Shown here: piece after piece, positions 1,059 through 29,170 of the stretch | Numbering within the stretch: the first letter of the stretch is position 1 | How the letters are laid out: every line of letters starts with the position of its first letter | Assembly (NCBI GenBank): GCA_020683205.1 | Contig: CP085689.1 | Span: forward strand, 1-64,000 | Reading direction: 5' to 3' | Length of the DNA: 64,000 bases | Origin: Lentisphaerae bacterium WC36 | Lineage (GTDB): Bacteria; Verrucomicrobiota; Lentisphaeria; Victivallales; SZUA-371 | Made by a program: the position numbers and the translations under genes | The notes under the pieces: generated by a model | What the model was told of the DNA's origin: nothing | What the model saw: only the letters and a program-made list of their open reading frames with translations | The model's database searches: none

Positions 1059-1610
1059 TTATTCATTCTCTCCAGTATTCGGTTGCTTGGCAATTGAATT
1101 AATTGCTAAATAGTTATAATTAAAAGTTCTAATTCCAAGATCAATATTTTGTTCAGTGACAAATTCATATCTTCGGCACGTTCTGCCATATTTACGAATA
1201 ATTTCATTCATCAATTCGTTGTTGTTGCTAATGTCAGAATTACTCAATACTAGTTGAATAACATCCCAGTTTTCAACGTCAATACGTTCATTTTGTGCTA
1301 CGCTACCAAGTTTTAAGCGATTCCAAATATTTTCAAATCCAGCCACACTGCCAGCATCAAGGGCATTGGCCAAGGCATGTTTTACACGAAGTCTGAACAT
1401 CTCTTCTGGTTCATTTTTTAGTCTGTCAATATCACGCCCCCAAGCAATTAATTTGACGATTGTTAATGGCGCAGTTTCTACATCAGTCGCATTTGGCAAC
1501 CACATTAAGTATTCTTGCATTTTATTCCACCACCCATCAAATAACTTTGCAATCTTGCTTAAATCCTCTTTGCATTGCCAAAATTTTAAGTTTATTTGTG
1601 GTCGCTTCAT
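1059..1610 (-). CDS. I: Phage tail protein I (baseplate wedge, P2 gpI-like)
   Basis: A 183-residue protein between the portal/J genes and the tail fibre gene. It has the gpI pattern: an N-terminal region with W-rich segments (residues ~9-40), then LPxATDVETAPLTIVKLIAWGRD, then a C-terminal domain. In P2 gpI joins gpJ in the baseplate and links it to the fibre gpH. Its ATG overlaps the portal stop codon as ATGA (1607-1610), so translation is probably coupled. P2 gpI is of similar length (about 176). I am fairly sure from position and sequence style, though the family is poorly conserved. Confidence 0.78.
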   Translation of the reverse strand: MKRPQINLKFWQCKEDLSKIAKLFDGWWNKMQEYLMWLPNATDVETAPLTIVKLIAWGRDIDRLKNEPEEMFRLRVKHALANALDAGSVAGFENIWNRLKLGSVAQNERIDVENWDVIQLVLSNSDISNNNELMNEIIRKYGRTCRRYEFVTEQNIDLGIRTFNYNYLAINSIAKQPNTGENE

Positions 1611-2653
1611 GAGATAACATCATCCAAAATTTTAAATTGAAGTCTTTTATTTTTAGGTAAACGCTCATTAATTTCACAGAACGTTTGAGCCATTGCTCTT
1701 ACTTCAATATCAATGTAATTTTCTTTTGCTTCAGTCGGCTTTGAAAATCCACCAACATTTTCTGGGATAACTCCCATTAATACTGGTTGGATGCGATGAG
1801 CAATCAAAATATCAGTTTCAGTAATATTTTTGATTTTTTCAAATTCATCCTTTTGGGATATGTCGCCCACTGGAATAATTTTTATTGAATCGGGATTGCC
1901 GTTGGCAATATGTAAAAACATGCTAGAAAAGTTCCCAACGCCTTTACCTTGTTTAATATTTTCTTGCAATTTTTTTTGTGCAGATTTACTCAATTTTGCG
2001 TCCGTACTATAAAAAATATAGCCAAGATGAGCCCCATTATTAAAATATTTACGTCTAAAAAGAGTCGCATCTTCAGCTAATAACGCACTTTGCATACTTC
2101 CCAACCAATCTGGAATGCCATACACATTTTGTGCCGCATCATATTCATAAATGTGAATGATTTCTCCAGGCATAAATTCAGTAATCTTACCGTCAGATTG
2201 TAAAAAACAGTATTGATTAGGCTTGGTCATGCGTCTAACATTCAATGCTGGAACGTGTTTATATTTATAAACTTCACCATTACGCAATCTTAATTCTTGT
2301 AAATAGGCATTGCCAAAAGTCAAAAAATCAAGGTTGGCCGCTTTAAAATCTTTATAACTAATAATATTAGTACGAACTAAACTATTGCTAAGCATATTAC
2401 GTCTAAAATAAATGCAACTTCCGTGATGACCATTAGCACGGTTCATTTTACTTAAGCCTCTTAAATCAACTGGGGGCAAATAATACTTACCATTAACATC
2501 CGTAACAACATTCAAATAATCAGTAAAATTACTTTTATGTACCTGTACTGGGTCGCCAAAGCTTAAATCTACAGTCTGTTCAATATTTTCAGCAGTCATA
2601 TTAATTTGTGCTGCTTTTTTATTTCGTTTTTTATTTTGTCTTTTCTTACCCAT
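1607..2653 (-). CDS. Q: Phage portal protein (P2 gpQ / PBSX-family)
   Basis: This 348-residue protein would form the dodecameric portal at the capsid vertex through which DNA is packaged and to which head and tail join. Recognisable features are a lysine-rich N-terminus, LPPVDLRGLSKMNRANGHHG (residues ~58-77), a long central segment ending in IYEYDAAQNVYGIPDWLGSM, and the C-terminal region RIQPVLMGVIPENVGGFSKP. P2 gpQ is 344 residues, so the length fits. The position is odd. In P2 this gene is beside terminase P, far from the tail genes, but here it sits between baseplate genes J (3 nt upstream) and I (4-nt overlap). I see no sign of decay. Confidence 0.88.
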   Translation of the reverse strand: MGKKRQNKKRNKKAAQINMTAENIEQTVDLSFGDPVQVHKSNFTDYLNVVTDVNGKYYLPPVDLRGLSKMNRANGHHGSCIYFRRNMLSNSLVRTNIISYKDFKAANLDFLTFGNAYLQELRLRNGEVYKYKHVPALNVRRMTKPNQYCFLQSDGKITEFMPGEIIHIYEYDAAQNVYGIPDWLGSMQSALLAEDATLFRRKYFNNGAHLGYIFYSTDAKLSKSAQKKLQENIKQGKGVGNFSSMFLHIANGNPDSIKIIPVGDISQKDEFEKIKNITETDILIAHRIQPVLMGVIPENVGGFSKPTEAKENYIDIEVRAMAQTFCEINERLPKNKRLQFKILDDVIS

Positions 2654-7632: not shown

Positions 7633-8778
7633 TTATTGAATAGTATTCAAATCCAATGCTAACCAAAGCTTGATGCTCTTTGGACACTCAAAAGGTGTTG
7701 CAGTGATGGCGATATTTACCTCGGTGCGACTTTGCCAAACAATATCAATGGCATTTTCTTCTGGTGGTTTAATCATTCCTGGGAATTCTTTTCCAGCAAT
7801 TTCAAAACCTTTACTTGCTTCACGCAATGGACGTGCAAAATCAATTTTGTTTACTGCAATGCTTTTTGAGGTGTTATTTAACGCACGATCCCCAATTTTG
7901 CCAATGGCAATTATGCGTACTCGCCTTGCTAAATAATCTAAAATTCGACGGTTTTCGTACACAAGGAAATCACCAGCTTCAACATCAAGTAAATGATGAT
8001 CAGCCCAGTACCAGCCGTCATAACCATTGTAATATTGTGGAACACTAAAACGTTGATCACTTAAATCTTTTAAATGTCCCATGTTTAATTCAACACTGTC
8101 TTTATCAACTGGGTTAGGACCTAAACCAATCAATGCACCAGTTTTAACTCTCATCGGAGTATCAGCAATTGAAACACCACAATCATTCAAGCGGCCACAA
8201 ACCACACCAAGATTATTGCCATGCAACTGTGGAACAACTGCCACACGATCAGCTGCAACATCAACTATTAATCCTTTTACTCTTGCTGTGTAATCGCTCC
8301 AAGTTTCATTATCTGCTTCTGTTGCTGAATCTATTTTTATTCCCTCACAACAAAGCATGACTGTAACAAACTTTGCATATTTACTCATAACAGCATAAGC
8401 AAAAAATTGTGCAGAAGTTGCATCATCTTTTTTTGTTATTGGGGTTATCACCACTACTGCTTCAACATTCAAATCGTTTGGTTTGTCTAGTGCTTCAAGA
8501 GCTTTCTCTTTCCAAGTTGCATCACTAGCAATGGGCAAGGCATACGCAAAAAAATTATCATCACGACTGTTGACTATTGCCTCTTTCAAATTTGTTTTTA
8601 AATCACTGTCGCCACTTCCAAGCAAGTCATCTAAATCACTTTGAGCAGTAATTGTTAAAATCTTATCTTTGTTTTTGTCACTATCAGATTTTCCAACATA
8701 CAAAAACGTCCTTTCTAATTGTTTAAATTCGCCTTGCATATTGTTTACTTGGCTAACTGTTACGCTTCCAACACTCAT
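7633..8778 (-). CDS. FI: Contractile tail sheath protein (P2 gpFI-like)
   Basis: A 381-residue sheath protein, close to P2 gpFI (396). Typical segments are the NCGVSIADTPMRVKTGALIGLG region (residues ~194-215), QRFSVPQYYNGYDGWYWADHH, and LLDVEAGDFLVYENRRILDYLARRVRIIAIGKIGDRALN, the conserved sheath core. It marks the phage as a myovirus with a contractile tail. A good Shine-Dalgarno (CTGGAG) precedes the ATG. Confidence 0.93.
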   Translation of the reverse strand: MSVGSVTVSQVNNMQGEFKQLERTFLYVGKSDSDKNKDKILTITAQSDLDDLLGSGDSDLKTNLKEAIVNSRDDNFFAYALPIASDATWKEKALEALDKPNDLNVEAVVVITPITKKDDATSAQFFAYAVMSKYAKFVTVMLCCEGIKIDSATEADNETWSDYTARVKGLIVDVAADRVAVVPQLHGNNLGVVCGRLNDCGVSIADTPMRVKTGALIGLGPNPVDKDSVELNMGHLKDLSDQRFSVPQYYNGYDGWYWADHHLLDVEAGDFLVYENRRILDYLARRVRIIAIGKIGDRALNNTSKSIAVNKIDFARPLREASKGFEIAGKEFPGMIKPPEENAIDIVWQSRTEVNIAITATPFECPKSIKLWLALDLNTIQ

Positions 8779-13539: not shown

Positions 13540-15081
13540 ATGAAAAATGAAATTACAGAAAAAGAGCAATTAAAAGCAAATGCTAGAAAATTATTTTTGA
13601 ATGGTACAAAAGTTCCCCAAATTTCAGAGGAATTATCTATTTCAAAAACAACCCTTTATAGCTGGATCAGAAAAGAACAATGGAATGAAGTCCTAACTGA
13701 TGCCAGTAGTCTTTTTGTTGCTCATAAACGCTTGCAATATCTTTTGGCCAAACCAACTAAAACCAGTCTAGAGCTTGACGAATTTGAAAAAATTTGCAAT
13801 GTTATTGACCGTTTAGAAAAAATTGAAGAGCGTAAAATCAAAGCGGCTGCTAAAGCCAAAGCAATTGAAGCTGGCGAATATTCAGAAAAAGGCAAACGTC
13901 GTAAAAAAGGTGGTAATAAACAAAATGATTTAAGCGAAATTGACCTTAGTACCGTTGAAGAAAAGGTAACAACTGGTCTTAAAGCCTACCAAATGGAGAT
14001 GTGGGCAATCCGTCACCATCGCAATAGACTTGTACTTAAAAGCCGTCAAATTGGCATGACGTGGTATTTTGCACGTGAAGCATTTGCTGATTTACTTTTA
14101 ACAGGGAAAAACAAAATATTTATCTCTGCAAGCTTAAAGCAAGTAGCAGTTTTCCGAAATTATATCAAAGGCTTTTGCCGTGAATGGTTTGATGTTGAAT
14201 TAAAAGGTAAAGAAGAAGTTTGCATTAAAACCCCTCACGGTGAAGCATATTTAATATTTTGTTCGACCAATATTTCAACTGCTCAAAGTTTCAACGGTGA
14301 TTTATATTTTGATGAATTTTTCTGGATTCCAAAGTTTGCCAGCTTAAAAACTACGGCTGGCGGTATGGCAACGCATAAACAATTTACAAAGACATATTTT
14401 AGCACACCGTCAAGCAAGGCACACAGTGCCTACCCATTTTGGAGTGGCAAAGATTTTATTGATAAAGAACGCAAAAAAGGCAATGGTCTAATTAAATGGC
14501 CAAGTGATAAAAAACTGCGTAAAGGTTGTGTTTGTCCAGATAAAATGTTTAGAGTAATTATTACTCTTGACGATGCAGAAACCAAAGGTGCTGACTTTTT
14601 CGACCGTGAACAATTAGAGTTAGAACATACTGATTATGAATTTGCATTACTCTATTTATGTCGATTTATGGACGATTCGGCCAGCATGTTTCATTTCAAT
14701 GAATTGGAAGACTGCATGGTTAATGCTAGCAATTGGAAAGATTTTGATTTAACTAAAAATAAACCATTCGGTAACAAACCAGTATGGATTGGTTACGACC
14801 CAGCACGCAGTTGCGATGGGGCGTGTATTGTCGTGGTTGCTCCACCAGAAAAGGTTAAAGGTAAATTCAGAGTGTTAGAGCGTATCACCTTAAATAATGT
14901 CAGATGGGATAAGCAAGCCGAAGCAATCAAAACCTTAACAGAAAATTACAATGTTGAATATATCGGCATTGACGTAACTGGTAATGGTTCAGCAGTTGCT
15001 GAAGCTGTGGAAAAGTTTTTCCCAGCCGTGACAAAATTATTCTATAATATTGAATTAAGGACTCATGGTACTAAAAGCTAA
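13540..15081 (+). CDS. P: Terminase large subunit, ATPase plus most of nuclease (P2 gpP-like), frame broken at 3' end
   Basis: A 513-residue protein. Residues ~10-50 form a helix-turn-helix (NGTKVPQISEELSISKTTLYSW). The packaging ATPase follows, with a Walker-A-like LKSRQIGMTW (residues ~166-175) and Walker B LYFDEFFWIP (~256-265). The nuclease region begins at VWIGYDPARSCDGACIVVV (first metal-binding Asp) and continues with VEYIGIDVTGNG (second Asp). P2 gpP is 590 residues. Here the frame ends FYNIELRTHGTKS-stop, while the homologous continuation MVLKAKQVIGD is in another frame (the next feature). The third nuclease Asp is therefore missing from this polypeptide unless a +1 shift occurs. Confidence 0.88.
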   Translation: MKNEITEKEQLKANARKLFLNGTKVPQISEELSISKTTLYSWIRKEQWNEVLTDASSLFVAHKRLQYLLAKPTKTSLELDEFEKICNVIDRLEKIEERKIKAAAKAKAIEAGEYSEKGKRRKKGGNKQNDLSEIDLSTVEEKVTTGLKAYQMEMWAIRHHRNRLVLKSRQIGMTWYFAREAFADLLLTGKNKIFISASLKQVAVFRNYIKGFCREWFDVELKGKEEVCIKTPHGEAYLIFCSTNISTAQSFNGDLYFDEFFWIPKFASLKTTAGGMATHKQFTKTYFSTPSSKAHSAYPFWSGKDFIDKERKKGNGLIKWPSDKKLRKGCVCPDKMFRVIITLDDAETKGADFFDREQLELEHTDYEFALLYLCRFMDDSASMFHFNELEDCMVNASNWKDFDLTKNKPFGNKPVWIGYDPARSCDGACIVVVAPPEKVKGKFRVLERITLNNVRWDKQAEAIKTLTENYNVEYIGIDVTGNGSAVAEAVEKFFPAVTKLFYNIELRTHGTKS

Positions 15082-15316
15082 ACAAGTTATCGGTGATAGA
15101 AGATTAGAATTTAGCAATGATGAAAGCCAAATTGTTCACGCTTATATGTTGGTTAAACAAACAGCGACATCAAACGATCGAATCACTTATAAAGCGGGAA
15201 GAAATAGTGAAACTGGTCATGGAGATGCCGCATTTGCCATTATGCACGTCCTCAACAATGAAGAATTAATCATCATTGAAGACGATGAAGAAGAATGCAC
15301 TCTAGTCTTCGGTTAA
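15065..15316 (+). CDS. P: Terminase large subunit C-terminal fragment (third nuclease Asp) in shifted frame
   Basis: An 83-residue frame beginning MVLKAKQVIGD and ending EEECTLVFG. It matches the last ~80 residues of P2 gpP, including RITYKAGRNSETGHGDAAFA, where GHGD carries the last nuclease metal ligand. It overlaps the preceding frame by 17 nt and lies in its +1 frame. Joining ...ELRT to MVLKAK would leave about one residue missing relative to P2 gpP, which suggests a 2-nt deletion or a 1-nt insertion. An AAGGA stands 3 nt before the ATG, so separate initiation is possible, though the spacing is short. Confidence 0.75.
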   Translation: MVLKAKQVIGDRRLEFSNDESQIVHAYMLVKQTATSNDRITYKAGRNSETGHGDAAFAIMHVLNNEELIIIEDDEEECTLVFG

Positions 15317-15642
15317 ACCAATACTGCAACGTGGCTTAATGTTTTTTCTTGTAATTCTTTTGAATGAGTTATAACCCAGACATCATAATTTTTTTGTAAA
15401 TTTAGCCATAAATCAACAGAAGTTTTTAGTGCTTTTGAAAACCTTAATGCCATTTCTGGAGTTACTCTTTTGTGCTGATTAATAATTGCTGAAATAGTTT
15501 TTCTTGATACATCAATAGCATCGGAAAAAGTTGTGATAGATATTTCTAAATCGTCCAAAAATAAATCTTTTAATATTTCACCAGGATGGCTAGGGCATAC
15601 CGTTCTTTCATGGACTGGGATTGTTTTTTCTGTATTATTCAT
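15313..15642 (-). CDS. higA: HigA-family antitoxin (XRE helix-turn-helix)
   Basis: A 109-residue antitoxin with the HigA signature HPGEILKDLFLDDLEIS (residues ~19-35), then the DNA-binding helices ISITTFSDAIDVSRKTISAIIN and KRVTPEMALRFSKALKTS-WLNLQKNYD. It follows the toxin by 11 nt in the toxin-first order normal for higBA. It would neutralise HigB and repress the pair through the palindrome upstream of higB. Its last codons overlap the convergent end of the terminase fragment by 4 nt. The module may stabilise the prophage or act against other phages. Confidence 0.92.
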   Translation of the reverse strand: MNNTEKTIPVHERTVCPSHPGEILKDLFLDDLEISITTFSDAIDVSRKTISAIINQHKRVTPEMALRFSKALKTSVDLWLNLQKNYDVWVITHSKELQEKTLSHVAVLV

Positions 15643-15653
15643 GATATTTACTC

Positions 15654-15932
15654 CTAATGATAATCTAAATAATTAACGATATAAACGTTGTTATTAATAA
15701 ATTTAAAAGTTATTCGCCAATTTCCAGAAACTGTTACAGCATAAATACTTTCATGTTTAGGTTCTAGAAGGTGCAATTTTAAAGCAGGGATGCGTAAATC
15801 CTCAATTTCTTCTGCTGCATCTAAATAAGATAAAATTATTTTTAATTTCTTACTATGTTTAGCTTGAATACCTTTTATTTTACCATGTTCAAAAAAGTTT
15901 TTTAATCCTTTGTGCTTAAAACTTTTAATCAT
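15654..15932 (-). CDS. higB: HigB-family toxin (RelE/ParE-like mRNA interferase)
   Basis: A 92-residue protein with typical HigB features: MIKSFKHKGLKNFFEHGKIKGI at the N-terminus, an ALKLHLLEP(K)HESIYAVTVSGNWRITFKF core in which the W-R-I/T-F segment carries the family's active-site Arg, and a YIVNYLDYH C-terminus ending in the usual His-containing tail. HigB cleaves ribosome-bound mRNA. First gene of the higBA operon. Confidence 0.92.
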   Translation of the reverse strand: MIKSFKHKGLKNFFEHGKIKGIQAKHSKKLKIILSYLDAAEEIEDLRIPALKLHLLEPKHESIYAVTVSGNWRITFKFINNNVYIVNYLDYH

Positions 15933-17884: not shown

Positions 17885-19459
17885 TTATTTTTTATGATAT
17901 TTCAAAAAATCATAAATCTGAAGCAACTTTTTTATTTGAGAATTATGCTTTGAAGCAAACCAATCTGAATCCAATTCAACTATTTTTATTAAAGATTCTT
18001 TTAATAAATTAATATCAATTTCTTCTTCTTGTAATTTTAAGCAGTGAATAACAAATCCTTGTATATCTTCTTGTTTGTCAAGCGAGTGAATTGATAATAT
18101 ATTTTCAATTGAAAATGATGTTTTATTCTTTCTTGACTGCTCCATAGATCTTGTAATATAATCTTCAAAACTAGTTTTTAACTTTTCTTGAACCTTGTTA
18201 GGTAACTCATCTTCATAATGACGGCAGTATTTGTGCATTGGGGTACTTCCACTGAAATGTTTTATATGATCAGGGATTGTAAGTTCTACAATTTTGTTGT
18301 TGTCAAAATTTTTGTTATCATAAAGTAAATCTAAATATAAATCTTTCGGTTCTAAGGAACCATATCCTATTTGACTATGAACTCCAACCCCAATAACTAC
18401 TTCTAAGTCTTCAATATTATCAACATCTTCAATGCCTACAGCCCGCACCTTTTCTATAGGTTCATTAGTTTTTACTAATTCATAAATGTGCTGTTTTAAT
18501 GTTCTTAAAACTTGAGGTTTGAATGATTCTCTATTTTTTTGAATAGCTTTATAAACAAATTCAAAAGAGCTTGTTTTAAATAACTCGACATTAATTCTTT
18601 GCCCATTATCAACTGTAATAATATTATTTTGGTGTGTTGGGTCTTGACAATTTTCATCAAATTCTATAAAAATTAACCTTTTCCCTAATGATAATAACTG
18701 TTCATTTGTCAGTCCATTAGCAATAGCTCCAAATATTTTTTTTATATTTGGATCAGAAATAGAGTAACCTAGAAATATTATCGGATGTTCAATAAAAAAT
18801 GTAATTAATTTAGCTGCAAGGTAGGGATTTTTTTCATCAAATATTTTATAATCATCTTTGTTGATAATTATACTTTCTGGTTTACTACAACAGCCGTGAA
18901 TTTTATATATTTCTGCGATATTATATATGGGTTTGAATAACAAATCATTTTGACCAATATAAGTTGTAAAGTTTGGAAAACATTTTTCTAAAAATAAATC
19001 ATAATTTGTCGTAATAATACCCGCAATTTTATTTTGAATGCTTTTCAATAACTGAACTTCTGCAGTGTAATTATCATTAACTTCATAATAATCTTTTTTA
19101 AATTTTTCAGCAACTGCTATTTTAAATGGATCCACATCTCGACTAATTAAAGCGTAGTGTCTATTCCTAAAATCCTCCTCGTCAACATCTTCATATATTT
19201 TTTTTGAAAAATCATCAGAAATTAAAGATGCTATTGCTGGGAATTTTAAATATTCATTACTTCTATCTTCCTCTCTTAAATTTCGTTCATAAGATTTATA
19301 AGGTAAAGGTAAATGAGGTTTTATTTTTTGAGCAAAATCTTCCAATAAATTTTGCCAATTTGGAAAGTTTAAATATCTTCGACTTATTCCACTTCCTATA
19401 AATAGAAAAGGAAATGTTTTTGCATCTTTTAGTAGTAGTTGTAATTTTTTATCTGGCAT
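17885..19459 (-). CDS. SIR2-like domain protein, probable anti-phage defence effector
   Basis: A 524-residue protein. Residues ~1-290 are a SIR2-like fold: FLFIGSGISRRYLNFPNWQNL near residue 18 (NAD-binding), GIITTNYDLFLE (~148), KIHGC (~197) and FLGYSISDPNIKKIFG (~233). Proteins of this kind in Thoeris, DSR and related systems degrade NAD+ during phage infection. The C-terminal ~230 residues are not a domain I recognise and may sense infection; the segment VEVVIGVGVHSQIG-like at ~345 is followed by charged helices. It is a single gene with its own promoter region, flanked by small phage genes, as is usual for cargo of P2-like prophages. I infer defence, and no test can be made from sequence alone. 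Confidence 0.8.
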   Translation of the reverse strand: MPDKKLQLLLKDAKTFPFLFIGSGISRRYLNFPNWQNLLEDFAQKIKPHLPLPYKSYERNLREEDRSNEYLKFPAIASLISDDFSKKIYEDVDEEDFRNRHYALISRDVDPFKIAVAEKFKKDYYEVNDNYTAEVQLLKSIQNKIAGIITTNYDLFLEKCFPNFTTYIGQNDLLFKPIYNIAEIYKIHGCCSKPESIIINKDDYKIFDEKNPYLAAKLITFFIEHPIIFLGYSISDPNIKKIFGAIANGLTNEQLLSLGKRLIFIEFDENCQDPTHQNNIITVDNGQRINVELFKTSSFEFVYKAIQKNRESFKPQVLRTLKQHIYELVKTNEPIEKVRAVGIEDVDNIEDLEVVIGVGVHSQIGYGSLEPKDLYLDLLYDNKNFDNNKIVELTIPDHIKHFSGSTPMHKYCRHYEDELPNKVQEKLKTSFEDYITRSMEQSRKNKTSFSIENILSIHSLDKQEDIQGFVIHCLKLQEEEIDINLLKESLIKIVELDSDWFASKHNSQIKKLLQIYDFLKYHKK

Positions 19460-19600
19460 AACAATTCTCGTTAATAGTTAATATTTTAGTATAAAATATA
19501 ACCAACTATTATGTTTTTCAATTTTATTTTATTTCTTAATCCCAACCCAAAAATAAACTGAAGCATTTTTTGAAAAATTATGCTAATTTTAAGGGTGTCA

Positions 19601-19643
19601 AGCTGAAATTCAGTTGGAAAATTCAGCTAAATTAATGTATATT
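19601..19643 (+). promoter_or_regulatory. Promoter with operator-like inverted repeat upstream of ogr
   Basis: TTGGAA at 19614-19619 and TATATT at 19638-19643 are spaced by 18 bp and resemble -35 and -10 boxes. An inverted repeat AGCTGAA (19601-19607) / TTCAGCT (19622-19628) overlaps the -35. The Ogr-like gene begins 36 bp downstream of the -10 with AAAGGAG as ribosome site. The repressor that would bind is unknown. Confidence 0.5.
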
Positions 19644-19678
19644 ATAAGTGAGCTAAATATTAAAGGAGAATAAAGCAA

Positions 19679-19945
19679 ATGATTAGTGTGAATTGCCCTC
19701 ATTGTGGAAGCAATGCCAGAGTTACCCATTCTGACACTAAGAGCAATAAAATTAAACATTTATATGCAGATTGCACCAATAAAGAATGCTACGCACGCTT
19801 TGTTGTTCGTATGAGTTACTCTCACGATATTACCCCATCACTAGCAACCCAATATGCTGCTATTCATGAAATGTTAGCTAACATGAATCCAACCGACCGC
19901 AAAAATTTATTAAACCAATACCAACAACCAAGTTTCAACTTTTAA
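19679..19945 (+). CDS. ogr: Ogr/Delta-family zinc-finger activator of late phage transcription
   Basis: An 88-residue protein with the family pattern: CPHCGSNARV (Cys 6 and 9), YADCTNKECYARF (Cys 32 and 37) and the SHDITPSLA tail, as in P2 Ogr and P4 Delta. These proteins bind a zinc ion and recruit RNA polymerase to the late promoters for head, tail and terminase genes. Start chosen because AAAGGAG is 7 nt upstream. It indicates that the structural genes here remain under P2-style late control. Confidence 0.93.
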   Translation: MISVNCPHCGSNARVTHSDTKSNKIKHLYADCTNKECYARFVVRMSYSHDITPSLATQYAAIHEMLANMNPTDRKNLLNQYQQPSFNF

Positions 19946-19957
19946 AGGGAATTAACA

Positions 19958-20080
19958 ATGAATAAAAAACAAATTTTACGCACAATTTTATTAATTGCAC
20001 TTGCTTCAACAATAATAACTTTTGTAACCATTTATGCTCAAAAAATATTAATACCTCCAAATATAACGATTCAAAAATAA
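19958..20080 (+). CDS. Small membrane peptide (40 residues) after ogr
   Basis: ATG at 19958 with AAAGGGA 7 nt upstream, only 12 nt after the ogr stop. The product MNKKQILRTILLIALASTII... has a basic start, one membrane span and a short outside tail ending QK. The shape resembles small lysis or type I toxin peptides, but that is only shape. Probably co-transcribed with ogr. Confidence 0.6.
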   Translation: MNKKQILRTILLIALASTIITFVTIYAQKILIPPNITIQK

Positions 20081-20150
20081 ACTATCATCTATTGTATATT
20101 TAAATTCTCATATTATTTTAATAATAAAAACAAATATGAGGGTTTAAATT

Positions 20151-20330
20151 ATGGAGTTAGTTATTGAGTGGCTTTAAAAAAACTACAAAATTATTGCAAC
20201 TATTATTTTTTCAATATTTACAATCACTTTATTTTTTATATCCGAGTATAATGATTGTCAAATTCTTATAGGGGTACTTTTTTCTACCAATTTCTTAATC
20301 ATTATATTATTTTCTTATTTTAATATTTAG
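20151..20330 (+). pseudogene. Small two-span membrane protein interrupted by an in-frame TAA
   Basis: A frame starting ATGGAGTTAG behind a good ribosome site (GAGGG) has TAA as codon 9 (20175-20177), yet stays open for 50 further codons encoding two membrane spans (IIATIIFSIFTITLFFI and LIGVLFSTNFLIIILF) before TAG. One base change would restore a 59-residue protein. Either the gene is recently inactivated, or translation restarts, or only the eight-codon leader is used. Function unknown; position beside another small membrane peptide suggests a lysis-type locus. Confidence 0.5.
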
Positions 20331-20342
20331 GGGGGTATCTCG

Positions 20343-20651
20343 GAAACGCATTACATTCATTACAGAATAACTAACTTGTTGATTTTGAACTTGTTATGTG
20401 TAATGAGTTACGCATTACAATTGATTACATAAAATAGCGAAATATTTATAAATGATTAATTATAAAAGATTAACAACTATTACATTTGTTATTAACTGTA
20501 ATAAATAATTTTAAAAATCACTCATTACATGTAATGTGTTTGTAATGCATTTGTAATGTTTTTAAACTTATAAAAATATTCCTCTAACCTTTTAATTATT
20601 AACAACTTATTAATGGTTATATAAAATTTGTAATGTTTGTAATGCGTTTTC
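20343..20651. repeat. Iteron array (CATTAC/GTAATG), candidate phage replication origin
   Basis: Ten exact copies of CATTAC or GTAATG lie in 302 bp, with CATTAC starting at 20349, 20358, 20413 and 20523, and GTAATG starting at 20400, 20531, 20542, 20553, 20630 and 20639. The outer copies form an inverted pair: GAAACGCATTAC (20343-20354) and GTAATGCGTTTTC (20639-20651). The interior is very AT-rich. Chance would give well under one copy. The array sits directly beside the 3' end of the primase-helicase gene, as origins of many phages do, so initiator binding is the best reading. Confidence 0.65.
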
Positions 20652-20716
20652 TGCATATACACCACTTTTTTAAATTCTGTACTTTTTAGGCAAAAAAAAA
20701 GAATAATTCCTATTTT

Positions 20717-23440
20717 TTAACTTAACTTTCTATTTTCATTATCATGACTTGAAAATACCCAACAATAAACTGGCTTGCACAATATTTGACTACGTACTGT
20801 CTTTTTACTTATAAAGCGATAACGACGGCTTTGTGGCAATAGTTTTTTTAATTCAGCTTCTGTTGGAAGTCGTTCGGTATGTTCTTCATTGCACACCTTA
20901 ATAAAGTGTTGAATATTAATTGCTATTTCATCTTTTTTATTACTATGGTTTAAATAAATTTTAGTTGTTTTATTTACTCGATCATATTGTTCGTTTAAGA
21001 AATCGTATTTTTCCCAGAAAATTTGTACTGTTGGGTGGTCAGCTCCTAATCGCTGTTGACGGCTAACTGCACGGCTATAGATATAATCTTCAATTTTTTC
21101 AACTTCAGCAAACGTCACTTTATTTTCAAATATTGTTGGCAAAGTCCATGCCCAGGCGGCAATCTTGGCATGAAGGGTAATTAATCGCATTTGCAAGCTA
21201 GGATTACGATTATAAAATTTGTCTTGTAATTCAGTAAATTTTTTAGTGTAGATATTAAAAAGTTCATTTTCTTTACTAAGTACCTGGTGCAGAAATCCAC
21301 AGCAATCTTCAACTGAAAGCTTCATCAATCGCTGAGTAGCCAATAAAGTTTCATTATTATGGTGTTGTTTAGTACAGTGACAGTGAATTATTCTTGATAA
21401 AACAGCATCGTCACCGTCAACTTCACTATTTTGACTGATTAATAAACCACCTTTAAATTTGGTCGTATTAACCCCATTACTGCCGTTTTTCTGTCCACGT
21501 GCACGAAGTTCGCCCCCATCTGCTAAACTTTTTAATTGTTCAAATCCAAATCCTTTATTGTGCGCATTTTTGTCGCCTAAAACTCTATCAGATTCAAGAA
21601 TAACCGCTGGCATATTACTAAGTTGATCAAGTTTATTTAACCAGGCAACTTTGGTGTCTTTGTTTGGGTCGAAACCCTCATAATTATCACGACCAAGGCA
21701 CTTCCATAAAAAGCCAATTTGGCAACTTTTACCAGCTCCTTGTTCTCCAGTATATTCAAGGAAAGGCCAGTCTTTACTATCAAGACGAATTTGTTCAGCA
21801 AAAAGCGTCCCAATCCACCAAGAAAGTAACACCATGCCGTTAAGGTTATTTGCCAGTTTCCAATCATCAATCCAGTTATTTTTAAAATTTGTATCGCTAG
21901 TTAAATGTAAATCTGATGTGCTTTTAATATTGCATTTATTAACATCAATAAATTTCATTTTATTTAATTCTTTACGTTGCCCATTATGATACCCAAAATT
22001 TGGGAAAATATAACTTTTGCTTTCGGTATCATAACCACAAAAATTCAAACTTCTTACTGACAAAATATGATGATCAAGCCATTTACTAACTAAATAACGC
22101 ATATCTCCAGCCGTGCCATCAAAGCGACCACCAGCAGTATTTTTTAGTAAAGCATCACCAAATGTTTTTGGACTATTTAAAGTGTCGCCAGTAACACCAA
22201 TATGTTCAGTTTTGCGTTGTTTATGTGGGAAATCAACACTAAAATAATATAACTGATCACAATCTGCATTAATTGGACGTTCGACATATAAAAAATTAGG
22301 GTAGCAATTTGCAATCTTTTCAGTCTTAACAAAAGTATTAAACTCTGCAACATGAATATTTACTTTATCGCCTTGGTTTAACCAGATATCTTCAAGAATT
22401 ACATCTTTTGCAAAATCTGAAGCAGCTTCTTTTTCTTCAATAGAATAACGGTAAAGCATACCGTTGTAATTAAAAATTGAATAGAATTGATTCTTTTTTA
22501 TCCAGGAAAAGAAAGCTTTTTTTGCTGCTGAATCTGCTAAATGATAAAGTCCACGCCAGTACGAATCACTGATATATTCTTCATTTAAAGCTTTTTTACG
22601 AAAAACATCGTCCCAGTCTTCATTTTTTGCTGGAAACATTACTTTATAGTGCTGCTTTAAATCTTTTAACTTTTGAATATGCTTTCTGGTGGCGTCAATT
22701 CCAGCAATATCAGAATCCATTGCCACTACCCAAGTGATATTTTTATCCTTATGCTCTTTAACAATATCAGTGCAAAAATTACCACATGAAAGTGTTGCTA
22801 TGCTCTTCATCGGTTTGTCATTGCTATCTTTTACATGTAAAAAACTCATGCTTTTAAAAATGCCTTCTGTAATGATAATTGTATCATTTTTTTCAAAAGT
22901 CATTTGTGGGGGAATCCAGCCAGAGCCTTTAAATCCTTTTTCGCTAATCTTATAAATTTTAGATTTTGCCCCATTACGAGCAACGTCACGACTATTTATA
23001 ATTCTTTTCCAATAGCAAGTGCTATTAATGATAATTTTAATTGCTGGGTAATATTCATTTTTTGTTTTGTGCTTAATTTTTTCTTGAAAAAATGTTTCTC
23101 CAATTACTTTTGGATCAAAGCCACGAACATCATACATATATGCTTTTGCGGCTTGATTTAAACTTTCCTCTTCAGTAAGTCGTTTATCTTGCAAAAAACG
23201 ATCAGTAATATTACTAAAGATATCTGGATATAATTCTCTAGTCGTTGCCGTCCACTGGCAATTATTTCTATGATTGCAAACTGCTACCCAAGGTTCATCT
23301 AATGAAATAAATACTGCTTTCCTTTCACACTTTGGACATTTACCATATCTTAATGAATTGCTACTTCTTTTAAATTGAAATTGCCCATCGTTTAGTAATG
23401 ATGAGCGAATTTCTTCTGTTATATAATTATTATCCCACAT
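20717..23440 (-). CDS. Phage replication protein: zinc-finger/Toprim primase fused to helicase-type ATPase
   Basis: A 907-residue protein. Residues 35-61 carry CPKC...CNHRNNC, a primase-type zinc site. Residues ~185-265 are a Toprim domain (DTIIITEGIFKSM and WVVAMDSDIAGID, with the Glu and DxD). A linker follows, then a P-loop GEQGAGKSCQ at about residue 570, a Walker-B-like NMPAVILESD and a sensor-like KGGLLISQNS. This is the plan of phage and plasmid primase-helicases that start replication at an iteron origin. It replaces the rolling-circle gpA of P2. The ATG follows CTGGAG. It is the largest phage gene and last of the leftward early operon. Confidence 0.85.
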   Translation of the reverse strand: MWDNNYITEEIRSSLLNDGQFQFKRSSNSLRYGKCPKCERKAVFISLDEPWVAVCNHRNNCQWTATTRELYPDIFSNITDRFLQDKRLTEEESLNQAAKAYMYDVRGFDPKVIGETFFQEKIKHKTKNEYYPAIKIIINSTCYWKRIINSRDVARNGAKSKIYKISEKGFKGSGWIPPQMTFEKNDTIIITEGIFKSMSFLHVKDSNDKPMKSIATLSCGNFCTDIVKEHKDKNITWVVAMDSDIAGIDATRKHIQKLKDLKQHYKVMFPAKNEDWDDVFRKKALNEEYISDSYWRGLYHLADSAAKKAFFSWIKKNQFYSIFNYNGMLYRYSIEEKEAASDFAKDVILEDIWLNQGDKVNIHVAEFNTFVKTEKIANCYPNFLYVERPINADCDQLYYFSVDFPHKQRKTEHIGVTGDTLNSPKTFGDALLKNTAGGRFDGTAGDMRYLVSKWLDHHILSVRSLNFCGYDTESKSYIFPNFGYHNGQRKELNKMKFIDVNKCNIKSTSDLHLTSDTNFKNNWIDDWKLANNLNGMVLLSWWIGTLFAEQIRLDSKDWPFLEYTGEQGAGKSCQIGFLWKCLGRDNYEGFDPNKDTKVAWLNKLDQLSNMPAVILESDRVLGDKNAHNKGFGFEQLKSLADGGELRARGQKNGSNGVNTTKFKGGLLISQNSEVDGDDAVLSRIIHCHCTKQHHNNETLLATQRLMKLSVEDCCGFLHQVLSKENELFNIYTKKFTELQDKFYNRNPSLQMRLITLHAKIAAWAWTLPTIFENKVTFAEVEKIEDYIYSRAVSRQQRLGADHPTVQIFWEKYDFLNEQYDRVNKTTKIYLNHSNKKDEIAINIQHFIKVCNEEHTERLPTEAELKKLLPQSRRYRFISKKTVRSQILCKPVYCWVFSSHDNENRKLS

Positions 23441-23498: not shown

Positions 23499-23573
23499 TT
23501 ATTTAAGTTCATTAAGAACTTGCTTTACTGTGGTAATTGCCGTTACTACAGTATTTTTTTTGCTCTTAAACAT
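23499..23573 (-). CDS. Possible 24-residue peptide
   Basis: ATG (23571-23573) preceded by AGAGGAAAG at good spacing and overlapping the end of the 72-residue gene by 8 nt; the peptide is MFKSKKNTVVTAITTVKQVL... Its ribosome site is as strong as any nearby. It is too short to assign and could be a leader for the replication gene 58 nt downstream. Confidence 0.35.
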   Translation of the reverse strand: MFKSKKNTVVTAITTVKQVLNELK

Positions 23574-23784
23574 TTTTCTTTCCTCTAATTACACATTTTG
23601 GTTTTTTTCCTAATGCTAGTGCCGTCATTATGCTATTTAAATCAGCAACGCAATAACGCTTTTTGCCTTTAGTTTTATTTCTTTGTACTTTTACCCAGCG
23701 ATTAATTTCCCACTCTTGTAATTTCTCTTTGCCAATTGCAAAAAAAATTTTTGCTCCTTGTCTATCAACCCATACTGGCGTCAT
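23566..23784 (-). CDS. Small winged-helix/excisionase-like protein
   Basis: A 72-residue basic protein (MTPVWVDRQGAKIFFAIGKE...). The pattern of an aromatic start, a helix (KEKLQEWEINRWV) and a basic hairpin (KTKGKKRYCVADLNSIMTAL) resembles MerR/Xis-type winged helices that bind DNA at att sites or origins. It could be the phage excisionase or an origin accessory factor. GGAGAAAAG precedes the ATG. Confidence 0.55.
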   Translation of the reverse strand: MTPVWVDRQGAKIFFAIGKEKLQEWEINRWVKVQRNKTKGKKRYCVADLNSIMTALALGKKPKCVIRGKKNV

Positions 23785-26128: not shown

Positions 26129-26485
26129 ATGCCATCCGAATATAAAACTTACTATATTGCTCATGCTGGTGGATACGAATCAGATATAATTTTTGAAGAT
26201 GATTTGATTAAAGATCCTTGCTTTTACGGCCTTTATTCTTGGAATAATAAAGATTATTTTTTAAGTCCAGCTGAAATTGGTGAACGTGATAAAGATCCTG
26301 TATTAAAATTAGAAAATGCTATTGAAAAAGAAAATTATTCCTATTGGGGATGGACTCCTGCAATTACCAATATTAATAAAGAAAAATATTTAAAATTATT
26401 AGATTTATATAATAAAGACAAAGCTGAATATAAAAAATATTACGATGAATTACTTACTGAAATTAATGAAGATTGGAATTGTTAA
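26129..26485 (+). CDS. Unknown protein, first gene of a three-gene cassette
   Basis: A 118-residue acidic protein with many Tyr and Trp residues (YSYWGWTPAITNINKEKYLKL). AAGG precedes the ATG at 8 nt. It ends 2 nt before the BRCT gene's ATG. I recognise no family. Being tightly joined to the BRCT and DUF4062 genes, it probably works with them. Confidence 0.6.
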   Translation: MPSEYKTYYIAHAGGYESDIIFEDDLIKDPCFYGLYSWNNKDYFLSPAEIGERDKDPVLKLENAIEKENYSYWGWTPAITNINKEKYLKLLDLYNKDKAEYKKYYDELLTEINEDWNC

Positions 26486-26487
26486 TT

Positions 26488-27279
26488 ATGATAAATAAAC
26501 AACAAGCCATTGAAGATTCTTTATCTTTATTTACTTATTCTTACGAAGAACAACATAATTTAGCAGAAAGGTTTAATGCTCCAATTCGTTATGAAAACGC
26601 TATTTCTCAATTGCAAGGTTTAGCTTATGCCATTGTCTTTGATAATATTATTAGTAATGATGAATTAAAAACTCTTTTATATTGGTTACATCATAATTCA
26701 GAGTTTTTAGAGCACTGGCCACTGAATTCAATTTGTGATATTTTTCTTGAAGCTAGAGAAAATAAAAGCTTCTCTAATGAGCAAAGAACTAAATTGTTTA
26801 GCCTGCTAGAAAAAATTGGCAAAGTTGATGACGTGTGTAACGCTATTTTTGATGATATAGATGAAAGTGACCATTTTTATTCAAAAACTGTAATTATTAC
26901 GGGAAATTTCAATGATTTAAAAAGGGCTGAAGTTTTAGAAAAATTATATGATTTTAATATTACGGCTCAAAATAAAGATGTTACTTTTGAAACAGATTAT
27001 GTTGTGGTTGGGGCTAAAGGATCAAGAAATTGGCGTTTCGGTAAATTCGGTCGCAAAATTGAAAAAGCTATTGAATATCGGGATCAAAGAGAAGTCCCAT
27101 TAAAAATTATTAATGAAGAAACATTTTTTAAGTTGTTGCAGAATAGACCAGCAAACTTAGAAACTATTAAAAATAATGAATTGCACCTTGAACAAATAGA
27201 AAAATTAAATTCGTTACTAGAGCAAAGCGTTTTAACTCAAGAACAATTTGATTCTGCTTTAGAAAATATTATAAGGTAA
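26488..27279 (+). CDS. BRCT-domain protein with N-terminal helical domain
   Basis: A 263-residue protein from ATG 26488; a TTG 15 nt upstream lies inside the previous gene. Residues ~1-125 are helical with the flavour of TerB-like folds (GLAYAIVFDNIISNDELKTL). Residues ~132-225 are a BRCT domain: KTVIITGNFNDLKRAEVLEKL, then FETDYVVVGAKGSRNWRFGKFGRKIEKAIEYRD, close to the BRCT of DNA ligase LigA and of PARP-type proteins. A C-terminal helix pair follows. BRCT domains bind phosphopeptides or DNA ends. Middle gene of the cassette. Confidence 0.78.
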   Translation: MINKQQAIEDSLSLFTYSYEEQHNLAERFNAPIRYENAISQLQGLAYAIVFDNIISNDELKTLLYWLHHNSEFLEHWPLNSICDIFLEARENKSFSNEQRTKLFSLLEKIGKVDDVCNAIFDDIDESDHFYSKTVIITGNFNDLKRAEVLEKLYDFNITAQNKDVTFETDYVVVGAKGSRNWRFGKFGRKIEKAIEYRDQREVPLKIINEETFFKLLQNRPANLETIKNNELHLEQIEKLNSLLEQSVLTQEQFDSALENIIR

Positions 27280-27288
27280 ATAGCAATA

Positions 27289-28275
27289 ATGAGTTTGAAC
27301 AAAAAATATCAAGTTTTCGTAAGTTCGACATATACAGATTTAAAAGAAGAACGAAGAAAAGTAATTCAAACTTTGATGGAGATGGACTGCATTCCTGCAG
27401 GAATGGAATTATTTCCGGCAATGGACGATGAACAGTTTAATTTTATTAAATCCGTAATTGATGATAGTGATTATTATTTACTAATAATTGGAGGGCGTTA
27501 CGGTTCTTTAAATCAAGAAGGAATTAGCTATACTGAAAAAGAGTATGACTATGCCATTGAAAAAGGTATGAAAGTCTTAGCTTTCGTTAATGATAATATC
27601 GAGAATCTACCTTCAAAAAATGTAGACTATGGAGATTTAAAGCAAAAGCTTGATGATTTTAAGAATAAAGTATGTACTGGTCGCCTTGTAAAATTTTGGA
27701 AAAATGCAAGAGATTTACCTGCATTGGTAGCTCTTAGTTTGAATAAGATCAGAACAGTTTATCCTGCAGTAGGTTGGAGTCGTGGTAGTTTTAGTAGCAA
27801 TACAGAATTGCTATCCGAAATAAATGATCTTAGAAAAGAAAATGAAAAACTTAAAAAACAGTTAATAGACTATAATAATGTAGAGAATTTTGGTAATTTA
27901 TCTAATGGGAATGATACTATAGAGTTGTTTGGGACTTGTAAACATGGGTATCCTTCCGTTTCTGCAGAATGGAAAGTGCAGGTTTCATGGAATGAAATTA
28001 TTGAATTAATTGGAGCAAAATTATTTGTTGCAAAAACTAGGCAAAGTATTAATGCAACGCTTAGTAGGTTGTTAGCTCAGAAATTTTATGATATTGTTCA
28101 TTCTGCGAAGTTAGATTTATCTATTTCTAATAAAATAGAACTCCAGCTAACAGCACTAGGTGTAATAAAAAGAGTTATTACGAACGATAGAGGTGGACAC
28201 GAAATAATAAAATTTATAATAACAACACAGGGTGAAAAATTGTTGAATGAATTAACATTGGAAACAAAAAAATAA
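27289..28275 (+). CDS. DUF4062 (TIR-like fold) protein with C-terminal winged-helix-like region
   Basis: A 328-residue protein. Residues ~7-110 are DUF4062: [49 protein letters not shown] and [22 protein letters not shown]. Its strand-helix order resembles TIR domains, and DUF4062 genes are common in defence islands. Residues ~175-195 form a coiled coil, and the last ~110 residues ([15 protein letters not shown] ... [17 protein letters not shown]) look like a winged helix. The gene is 9 nt after the BRCT gene and is closed by a hairpin. An NAD-directed effector with a DNA or partner sensor is my inference. Confidence 0.75.
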
Positions 28276-28408: not shown

Positions 28409-29170
28409 TCAGTGTATACTCCGGTTATGGACACCATATAATGACATATTTAAATAAAAGGGTTTATTATCTGAAACGGCTTGCTTTATCTGTTTTTTTG
28501 CTTCTAAAGTCAAGGCTTCTGTTAAATATATATCTTGGTTGTGGTATTTTGTTAATGAAGGAACGGCATTAATTTCTTTTCCCTTTATATGAAAAAATCC
28601 ATCAAGACCGTAGTAACTACCAGGTTTCCCCATATAGCCTCCCGCAATATTAACATCAAATCCTAAATTAAGGGGATTTTCTCCTTCTGAGCTTTTTGGA
28701 CCAAAGTGCCCTTTTCCGATATGAATTGTGAGGTATCCATTATTTTTTAACAGTCTAGGCAAAGTTATACTTTTAGTTGTCAACCCAAGCCAATTCCATT
28801 TTTTGGGACCGTAAGGACTCCTGTTGTTATCAAATGGATAAATCCATAAAGTTGTTCTATGCCGTGCGGAATTTTGCCCAGTTAAAATTGAAATTCTTGT
28901 AGGATAGCAAATGGAGTGTGCATAAAAGTTTGTAAAACATTGTAATTTTTTCCATGTTTGGAGTTTTATAAAAATCATTTAATGGTTGTCTGCATACATT
29001 ACCAGATTTGTCAGTAATGAATGGTACTGATGTATCCATTATTCCTAGATCATCCACTAAAAATATAATGATATTTAGTTGTTCATTTTTAGTACTTATT
29101 TTAGAATTAATATTGTCATTAATCGCATATGTAGCAAGTCCCGATAAAAAAATTTACTATATTTATTCAT
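28409..29170 (-). pseudogene. Type I sulfatase, truncated and frameshifted
   Basis: The remnant begins at ATG 29168-29170 (MNKYSKFF..., good ribosome site AAGGATG). One T lost from a T-run at about 29145-29151 shifts the frame out of what would be a signal peptide (FLSGLATYA). The next piece has IIIFLVDDLGIMDTSVPF (metal-binding Asp pair) and TPNMEK. A second shift near 28945-28960 then moves to FTNFYAHSICYPTRISILTG, the sulfatase active-site C-x-P-T-R motif. It continues through TLPRLLKNNGYLTIHIGKGH to NMSLYGVH. Homology stops at about 28427 and the C-terminal half is absent. The gene was probably cut by prophage or island insertion. Confidence 0.85.

Follow-up and report, generated by a model that had tools for sequence, protein, structure and literature searches.

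How a P2-like temperate phage without gpA starts its replication is the question raised by a prophage in the 64,000-nucleotide stretch of contig CP085689.1 that we analyzed (the window). Just past the stop codon of a gene encoding a 907-residue primase-helicase lies a dense array of short repeats. We propose, with a probability of roughly 0.87, that this array is the theta-type replication origin of the phage and that the adjacent protein is its self-loading initiator; binding, melting, and a bidirectional start are the steps we infer.

The prophage and its missing gpA

Judging by its head and tail genes (major head phrog_70, scaffold phrog_73, small terminase phrog_74, portal phrog_68, tail sheath phrog_907), the prophage is a P2-type myophage. 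It is approximately 36.4 kb long, runs across the contig end (window 1-28408 plus L139 11800-19784), and carries virion genes (portal, capsid, terminase, tail sheath, baseplate) as well as an integrase gene (L139 11939-13021). Head, packaging, and ogr genes are shared with the Peduoviridae that use P2-type gpA replication; the differences are that gpA is missing here and that the proposed origin is not inside the initiator gene. A search for gpA (PF05840) gave no match in the whole genome, while the control search found gpA in E. coli. The initial annotation, which was made from the sequence alone, held that this phage had exchanged its gpA module. The absence of gpA beside a P2-type head agrees with this, but this phage is not unique in its exchange: replacement of gpA by this primase is already established in Peduoviridae (phi3, Dobby, Smp131, and ev239 in GenBank), and the known phages with a phrog_1139-type primase are mostly members of that family.

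Predicted domains of the 907-residue protein

The protein matched the phrog_1139 'DNA primase' profile over its full length (E 3.9e-169, residues 8-900 on 5-891 of 895). In the AF2 model (pLDDT 89.7, pTM 0.74), residues 91-302 matched the DnaG Toprim domain (Z 13.8), and residues 312-905 matched SCCmec Cch (5dgk, Z 25.2, 469 residues) and SaPIbov1 Rep (8tch, Z 21.3, 442 residues). For the helicase half, structure comparison gave a Z of 25 for Rep/Cch versus 13 for D5, and neither D5_N nor Pox_D5 matched the protein. The Pfam family DUF927 was matched by one of 49 homologues (E 0.0049), which was not the window protein. Taken alone, the winged-helix-like C-terminal domain had weak matches to Rep (Z 5.2) and Cch (Z 4.0) that were no better than that to a relaxosome accessory protein. 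From the model, the protein is predicted to be a DnaG-type primase fused to a helicase of the SaPIbov1 Rep/SCCmec Cch fold. Rep and Cch are initiators that act at iteron origins located immediately 3' of their own genes.

Composition and layout of the array

Ten copies of CATTACA and three ATTACA variants (13 ATTACA in all) occur in both orientations within 302 bp. The ten exact CATTAC/GTAATG hexamers (20349-20644) noted in the initial annotation were thus found again, and all ten extend to the longer shared unit CATTACA. Against an expectation of 0.18 hexamers per 302 bp, derived from shuffles of the whole window (mean 37.3 per 64 kb), the ten observed correspond to a Poisson P(≥10) of approximately 7e-15. 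Nowhere in the 64-kb window did another 6-mer occur more than seven times within 310 bp. Similar hexamer density elsewhere in the genome had been named as evidence against an origin; the hexamer is not dense elsewhere, and a scan for CATTAC pairs 2-12 bp apart found no second cluster in the 3.66-Mb genome, with a reversed-pattern control that was uninformative as the pattern reads the same backwards. The candidate phage origin next to a replication gene, as first suggested, is supported, with an array far above chance beside a Toprim primase-helicase.

The array starts 73 bp past the stop codon of the 907-residue gene, in non-coding DNA flanked by convergent genes (Table 1). No ORF of at least 60 aa was found inside it, and because it lies between the 3' ends of the primase and Ogr-type genes, no annotated gene reads out of it. 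Its layout, with iteron orientations as arrows and steps in bp, is >9>77>11>11>6<27>18<55<10<15>40<9<. The mirrored ends described in the initial annotation are real, with the left end exact (GAAACGCATTAC, 20343-20354) and the right end carrying one mismatch to the mirror image (AAAACGCATTAC, 20639-20650). Inside group A is a 14-bp palindrome (CATTACATGTAATG, 20523-20536).

A search of 19600-21000 against Rfam gave no match. GC skew, which had been proposed as a check, showed no switch at the array, a point against the proposed origin. A blastn search of the array against phages also gave no match, as would be expected because the iteron words change (see below).

Table 1. Features of the array and its surroundings (window coordinates).
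Feature	Position	Strand	Remarks
Ogr/Delta-type late activator	19679..19945	+	convergent with primase
Far-end outer box	20332..20348	+	GGGGTATCTCGGAAACG; by eye
Iteron array, candidate replication origin	20343..20651	.	10 CATTACA, 13 ATTACA, mirrored ends
Far end pair T2	20349..20364	+	CATTACATTCATTACA; two inward-pointing iterons 9 bp apart
Group C	20399..20429	.	iterons 20399(-), 20413(+), 20424(+); 10- and 15-bp steps as in homologues
Group A	20523..20558	.	three - strand iterons 11 bp apart plus one convergent
Spacer between T1 and A, candidate melting site	20559..20628	.	AT-rich (AT 0.85)
Near end pair T1	20629..20644	-	mirror copy of T2; CATTACAAACATTACA on - strand
Near-end outer box	20645..20665	-	GTGGTGTATATGCAGAAAACG on - strand; by eye
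907-aa primase-helicase, proposed initiator	20717..23440	-	Zn ribbon; Toprim 91-302; Rep/Cch-type helicase 312-800; C-terminal winged-helix-like domain 803-900
72-aa ORF	23566..23784	-	just upstream of primase; no family match

Arrays beside homologous primases

Homologue loci were collected from genome and viral contig collections by alignment-based scans. Single-protein pattern scans of genome and viral contigs found no relative, and a 16-bp array pattern gave only unspecific matches in viral contigs. Within 650 bp past the primase stop codon, most loci showed one strongly repeated 6-mer, usually well above the rest of the locus. Within these 650 bp, our detector required a word that forms a 9-bp direct pair at one end and recurs as the mirror image of that pair at the opposite end. 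By this measure, 82 of 125 homologues had a mirror-ended array past the primase stop codon, compared with 1 of 1,517 control windows and none of 630 shuffles; we place the weight on the control windows rather than on the count of 82 because the detector rules were set after the pattern had been seen, and the homologues are not independent samples. Locus L011, from a genome of the same order as the host, has an array identical in sequence to that of L013, from Victivallaceae. The absence of the array beside close homologues, which the initial annotation would have counted against an origin, was thus not what we found.

The standard array is missing downstream in about one third of homologues. 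Many of the loci scored negative hold partial or displaced arrays, such as that of L065 approximately 690 bp away. The whole Dobby/Smp131/ev239 clade of the primase family, with its relatives, has no such array, and therefore the primase can work without one. In a Pseudomonas saxonica prophage (L023), GTTACA occurs 11 times with an exact 8-bp period at ~8226-8576, 1.6 kb past the primase and apart from its origin-like array.

The iteron word differs by lineage, with ATTACA in the window, GTTACA in Victivallaceae, TTAACA, CTAAC in Microbulbifer, GGTAAT in Endozoicomonas, and CCGGAACA and TGGAAGG in Pseudomonas. Despite these changes of word, the position, the order of orientations, the 9-bp end pairs, and the phasing of about 11 bp are kept across lineages, and the mirror-image ends are the most conserved feature of the array. 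By eye, many but not all homologues have outer boxes resembling GTATNCCGGAAA beyond the two ends. The Victivallaceae array (>9>65>11>11>6<18>9>11>64<10<15>52<9<) includes the same group A pattern as the window (>11>11>6<), and group A lies 73-87 bp from T1 in most cases. Among 20 representatives, long-range distances between same-strand iterons were periodic at about 11 bp (mean cosine 0.377 versus 0.086, sd 0.032, for a null of jittered clusters), a periodicity that partly reflects shared ancestry. The spacer between T1 and A had a mean AT content of 0.69 versus 0.47 for the loci (34 less redundant homologues) and was weakly enriched in a few lineages.

Iteron words and domains of the proposed initiator

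Across 32 phages, similarity between iterons tracked the AAA and C-terminal domains of the primase-helicase once the remainder of the protein was allowed for (partial 0.38 and 0.40, respectively; p 0.002 each), but it did not track the Toprim domain (-0.12). The phage pairs are not independent, and two other segments also carry small partial signals. This covariation bears on whether the array could instead be an operator for a phage regulator (Ogr, a CII-like or a winged-helix protein), which we regard as very improbable. The iteron words are short and partly palindromic, as an operator might be, and other genes follow the array in Lentisphaeria-type relatives: ParB_N-domain genes in L013 (7337-8665), L052 (7425-8948), and L054 (6898-8277), and a winged-helix gene in L051 (6742-7053). 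Yet in the window the array sits where two genes converge with their 3' ends and contains no ORF of at least 60 aa, phages of many lineages have an array behind the primase, and its word tracks the helicase domains.

The same ParB_N genes could point to a centromere, at which ParB-like proteins would act in partition. We consider this the faintest of the alternatives, since the phage integrates, no ParB-like gene was found among the prophage proteins scanned, and Pseudomonas phages with arrays show no ParB among their annotated neighbors.

Comparison with known replication systems

Origins of SaPIs and PICIs are placed 3' of the initiator gene, with groups of iterons surrounding an AT-rich stretch (PMC6092414, PMC7581432), and SaPI Rep uses its C-terminal domain to recognize iterons that lie shortly past its own gene (PMC7581432). 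The window shares with SaPIbov1 (Rep-ori) and EcCICFT073 (pri-rep-ori) an initiator helicase of the same predicted fold, iterons directly 3' of its gene, and iteron sets (here T1 and A) flanking an AT-rich region, with the SaPI origins compared by description rather than by sequence. Unlike these satellites, the prophage is a full P2-like phage with virion genes, and its array of approximately 300 bp has mirrored 9-bp end pairs and several groups. Its primase is of the DnaG/Toprim type and fused to the helicase, whereas those of SaPIbov1 and SaPI5 are AEP primases (PMC7581432).

P4 alpha has the same order of Zn ribbon, Toprim, and helicase, and P4 has 8-bp iterons in both orientations with 9-11-bp steps. 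Its helicase, however, is of the D5 type (D5_N and Pox_D5 matches), a profile comparison with the window protein aligns only the Toprim part, and the P4 sites are two and separate, with ori ~4.5 kb from crr. P4 requires both ori and crr, and crr lies just 3' of alpha with type I iterons spaced 9 bp apart. By analogy, the window array could be a second cis-required region or a copy-control site, with the true start elsewhere. We judge this unlikely because neither the prophage nor the genome has a second CATTACA cluster and in SaPI-type replicons the only origin is the one 3' of the initiator (PMC6092414).

The initial annotation described the module as plasmid-like. A SaPI/P4-like module is the better description, given a helicase that folds like SaPIbov1 Rep/SCCmec Cch and a site 3' of the initiator gene, as in SaPI/PICI (PMC6092414, PMC7581432) and P4 crr and unlike plasmid RepA iterons.

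Also close are Peduoviridae with a phrog_1139 primase, such as Pseudomonas phages phi3 and PaBSM-2607-JFK, in which the primase is homologous and an array of the same architecture directly follows its gene. They differ in their iteron words (CCGGAACA, TGGAAGG) and in the protein itself (30-32% identity), and their origin is unannotated in the records examined. In open-access full texts, we found no published description of an array origin across this family.

A model for initiation

Because the window has the same parts in the same order as a SaPI-type system, we propose that the origin is bound and opened by the adjacent protein. The initiator would combine a DnaG-type primase (Zn ribbon and Toprim) with a self-loading hexameric helicase of the SaPI Rep/SCCmec Cch type, and its C-terminal domain would read CATTACA. 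Iterons 9-11 bp apart would sit on one face of the helix, and the mirrored end pairs together with the central convergent palindrome would place two assemblies in opposite orientation. These could then melt the AT-rich spacer on the side of the gene and start forks, for which the fused primase would lay primers.

More tentatively, and with chances we put slightly under even, a common origin grammar may hold across gpA-less P2-like phages. Initiator and iteron word would diversify together, while spacing, orientation, and mirror ends would stay fixed because two opposed initiator-helicase assemblies depend on this geometry for their placement; between coexisting prophages, the words could serve as replication-specificity groups.

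With this proposal, many gpA-less P2-like phages, including Pseudomonas aeruginosa prophages, gain an origin and an initiator that can be tested, and they would be linked mechanistically to phage satellites (SaPI, P4). The dozens of natural arrays share one geometry but differ in their words, and they can serve as a ready-made data set for studying how initiator helicases recognize origins and what places two of them head to head.

Other features of the prophage

Sulfatase-like fragments flank the prophage (L139 11413-11805 and window 28409-28978, by eye), which suggests insertion into a sulfatase gene; no strong att repeat was found, the longest shared stretch being 10 bp. The large terminase is split into two overlapping frames (window 13540-15081 and 15065-15316, +) that match adjacent parts of phrog_5909. 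This may be a frameshift or an assembly error, and because the terminase appears frameshifted, this prophage copy may be defective. The P2-type portal gene (window 1607-2653, -) lies within the tail/baseplate cluster and not beside the terminase. Three accessory ORFs at the prophage end (window 26129-28275, +) had no PADLOC match; one has a DUF4062 domain. Between terminase and ogr are a SIR2-domain protein (window 17885-19459, -) matching the candidate defence family PDC-S25 (E 1.5e-149) and a HigB-like toxin with an HTH partner (window 15313-15932, -), and by this gene content the interval is a putative defence cargo spot.
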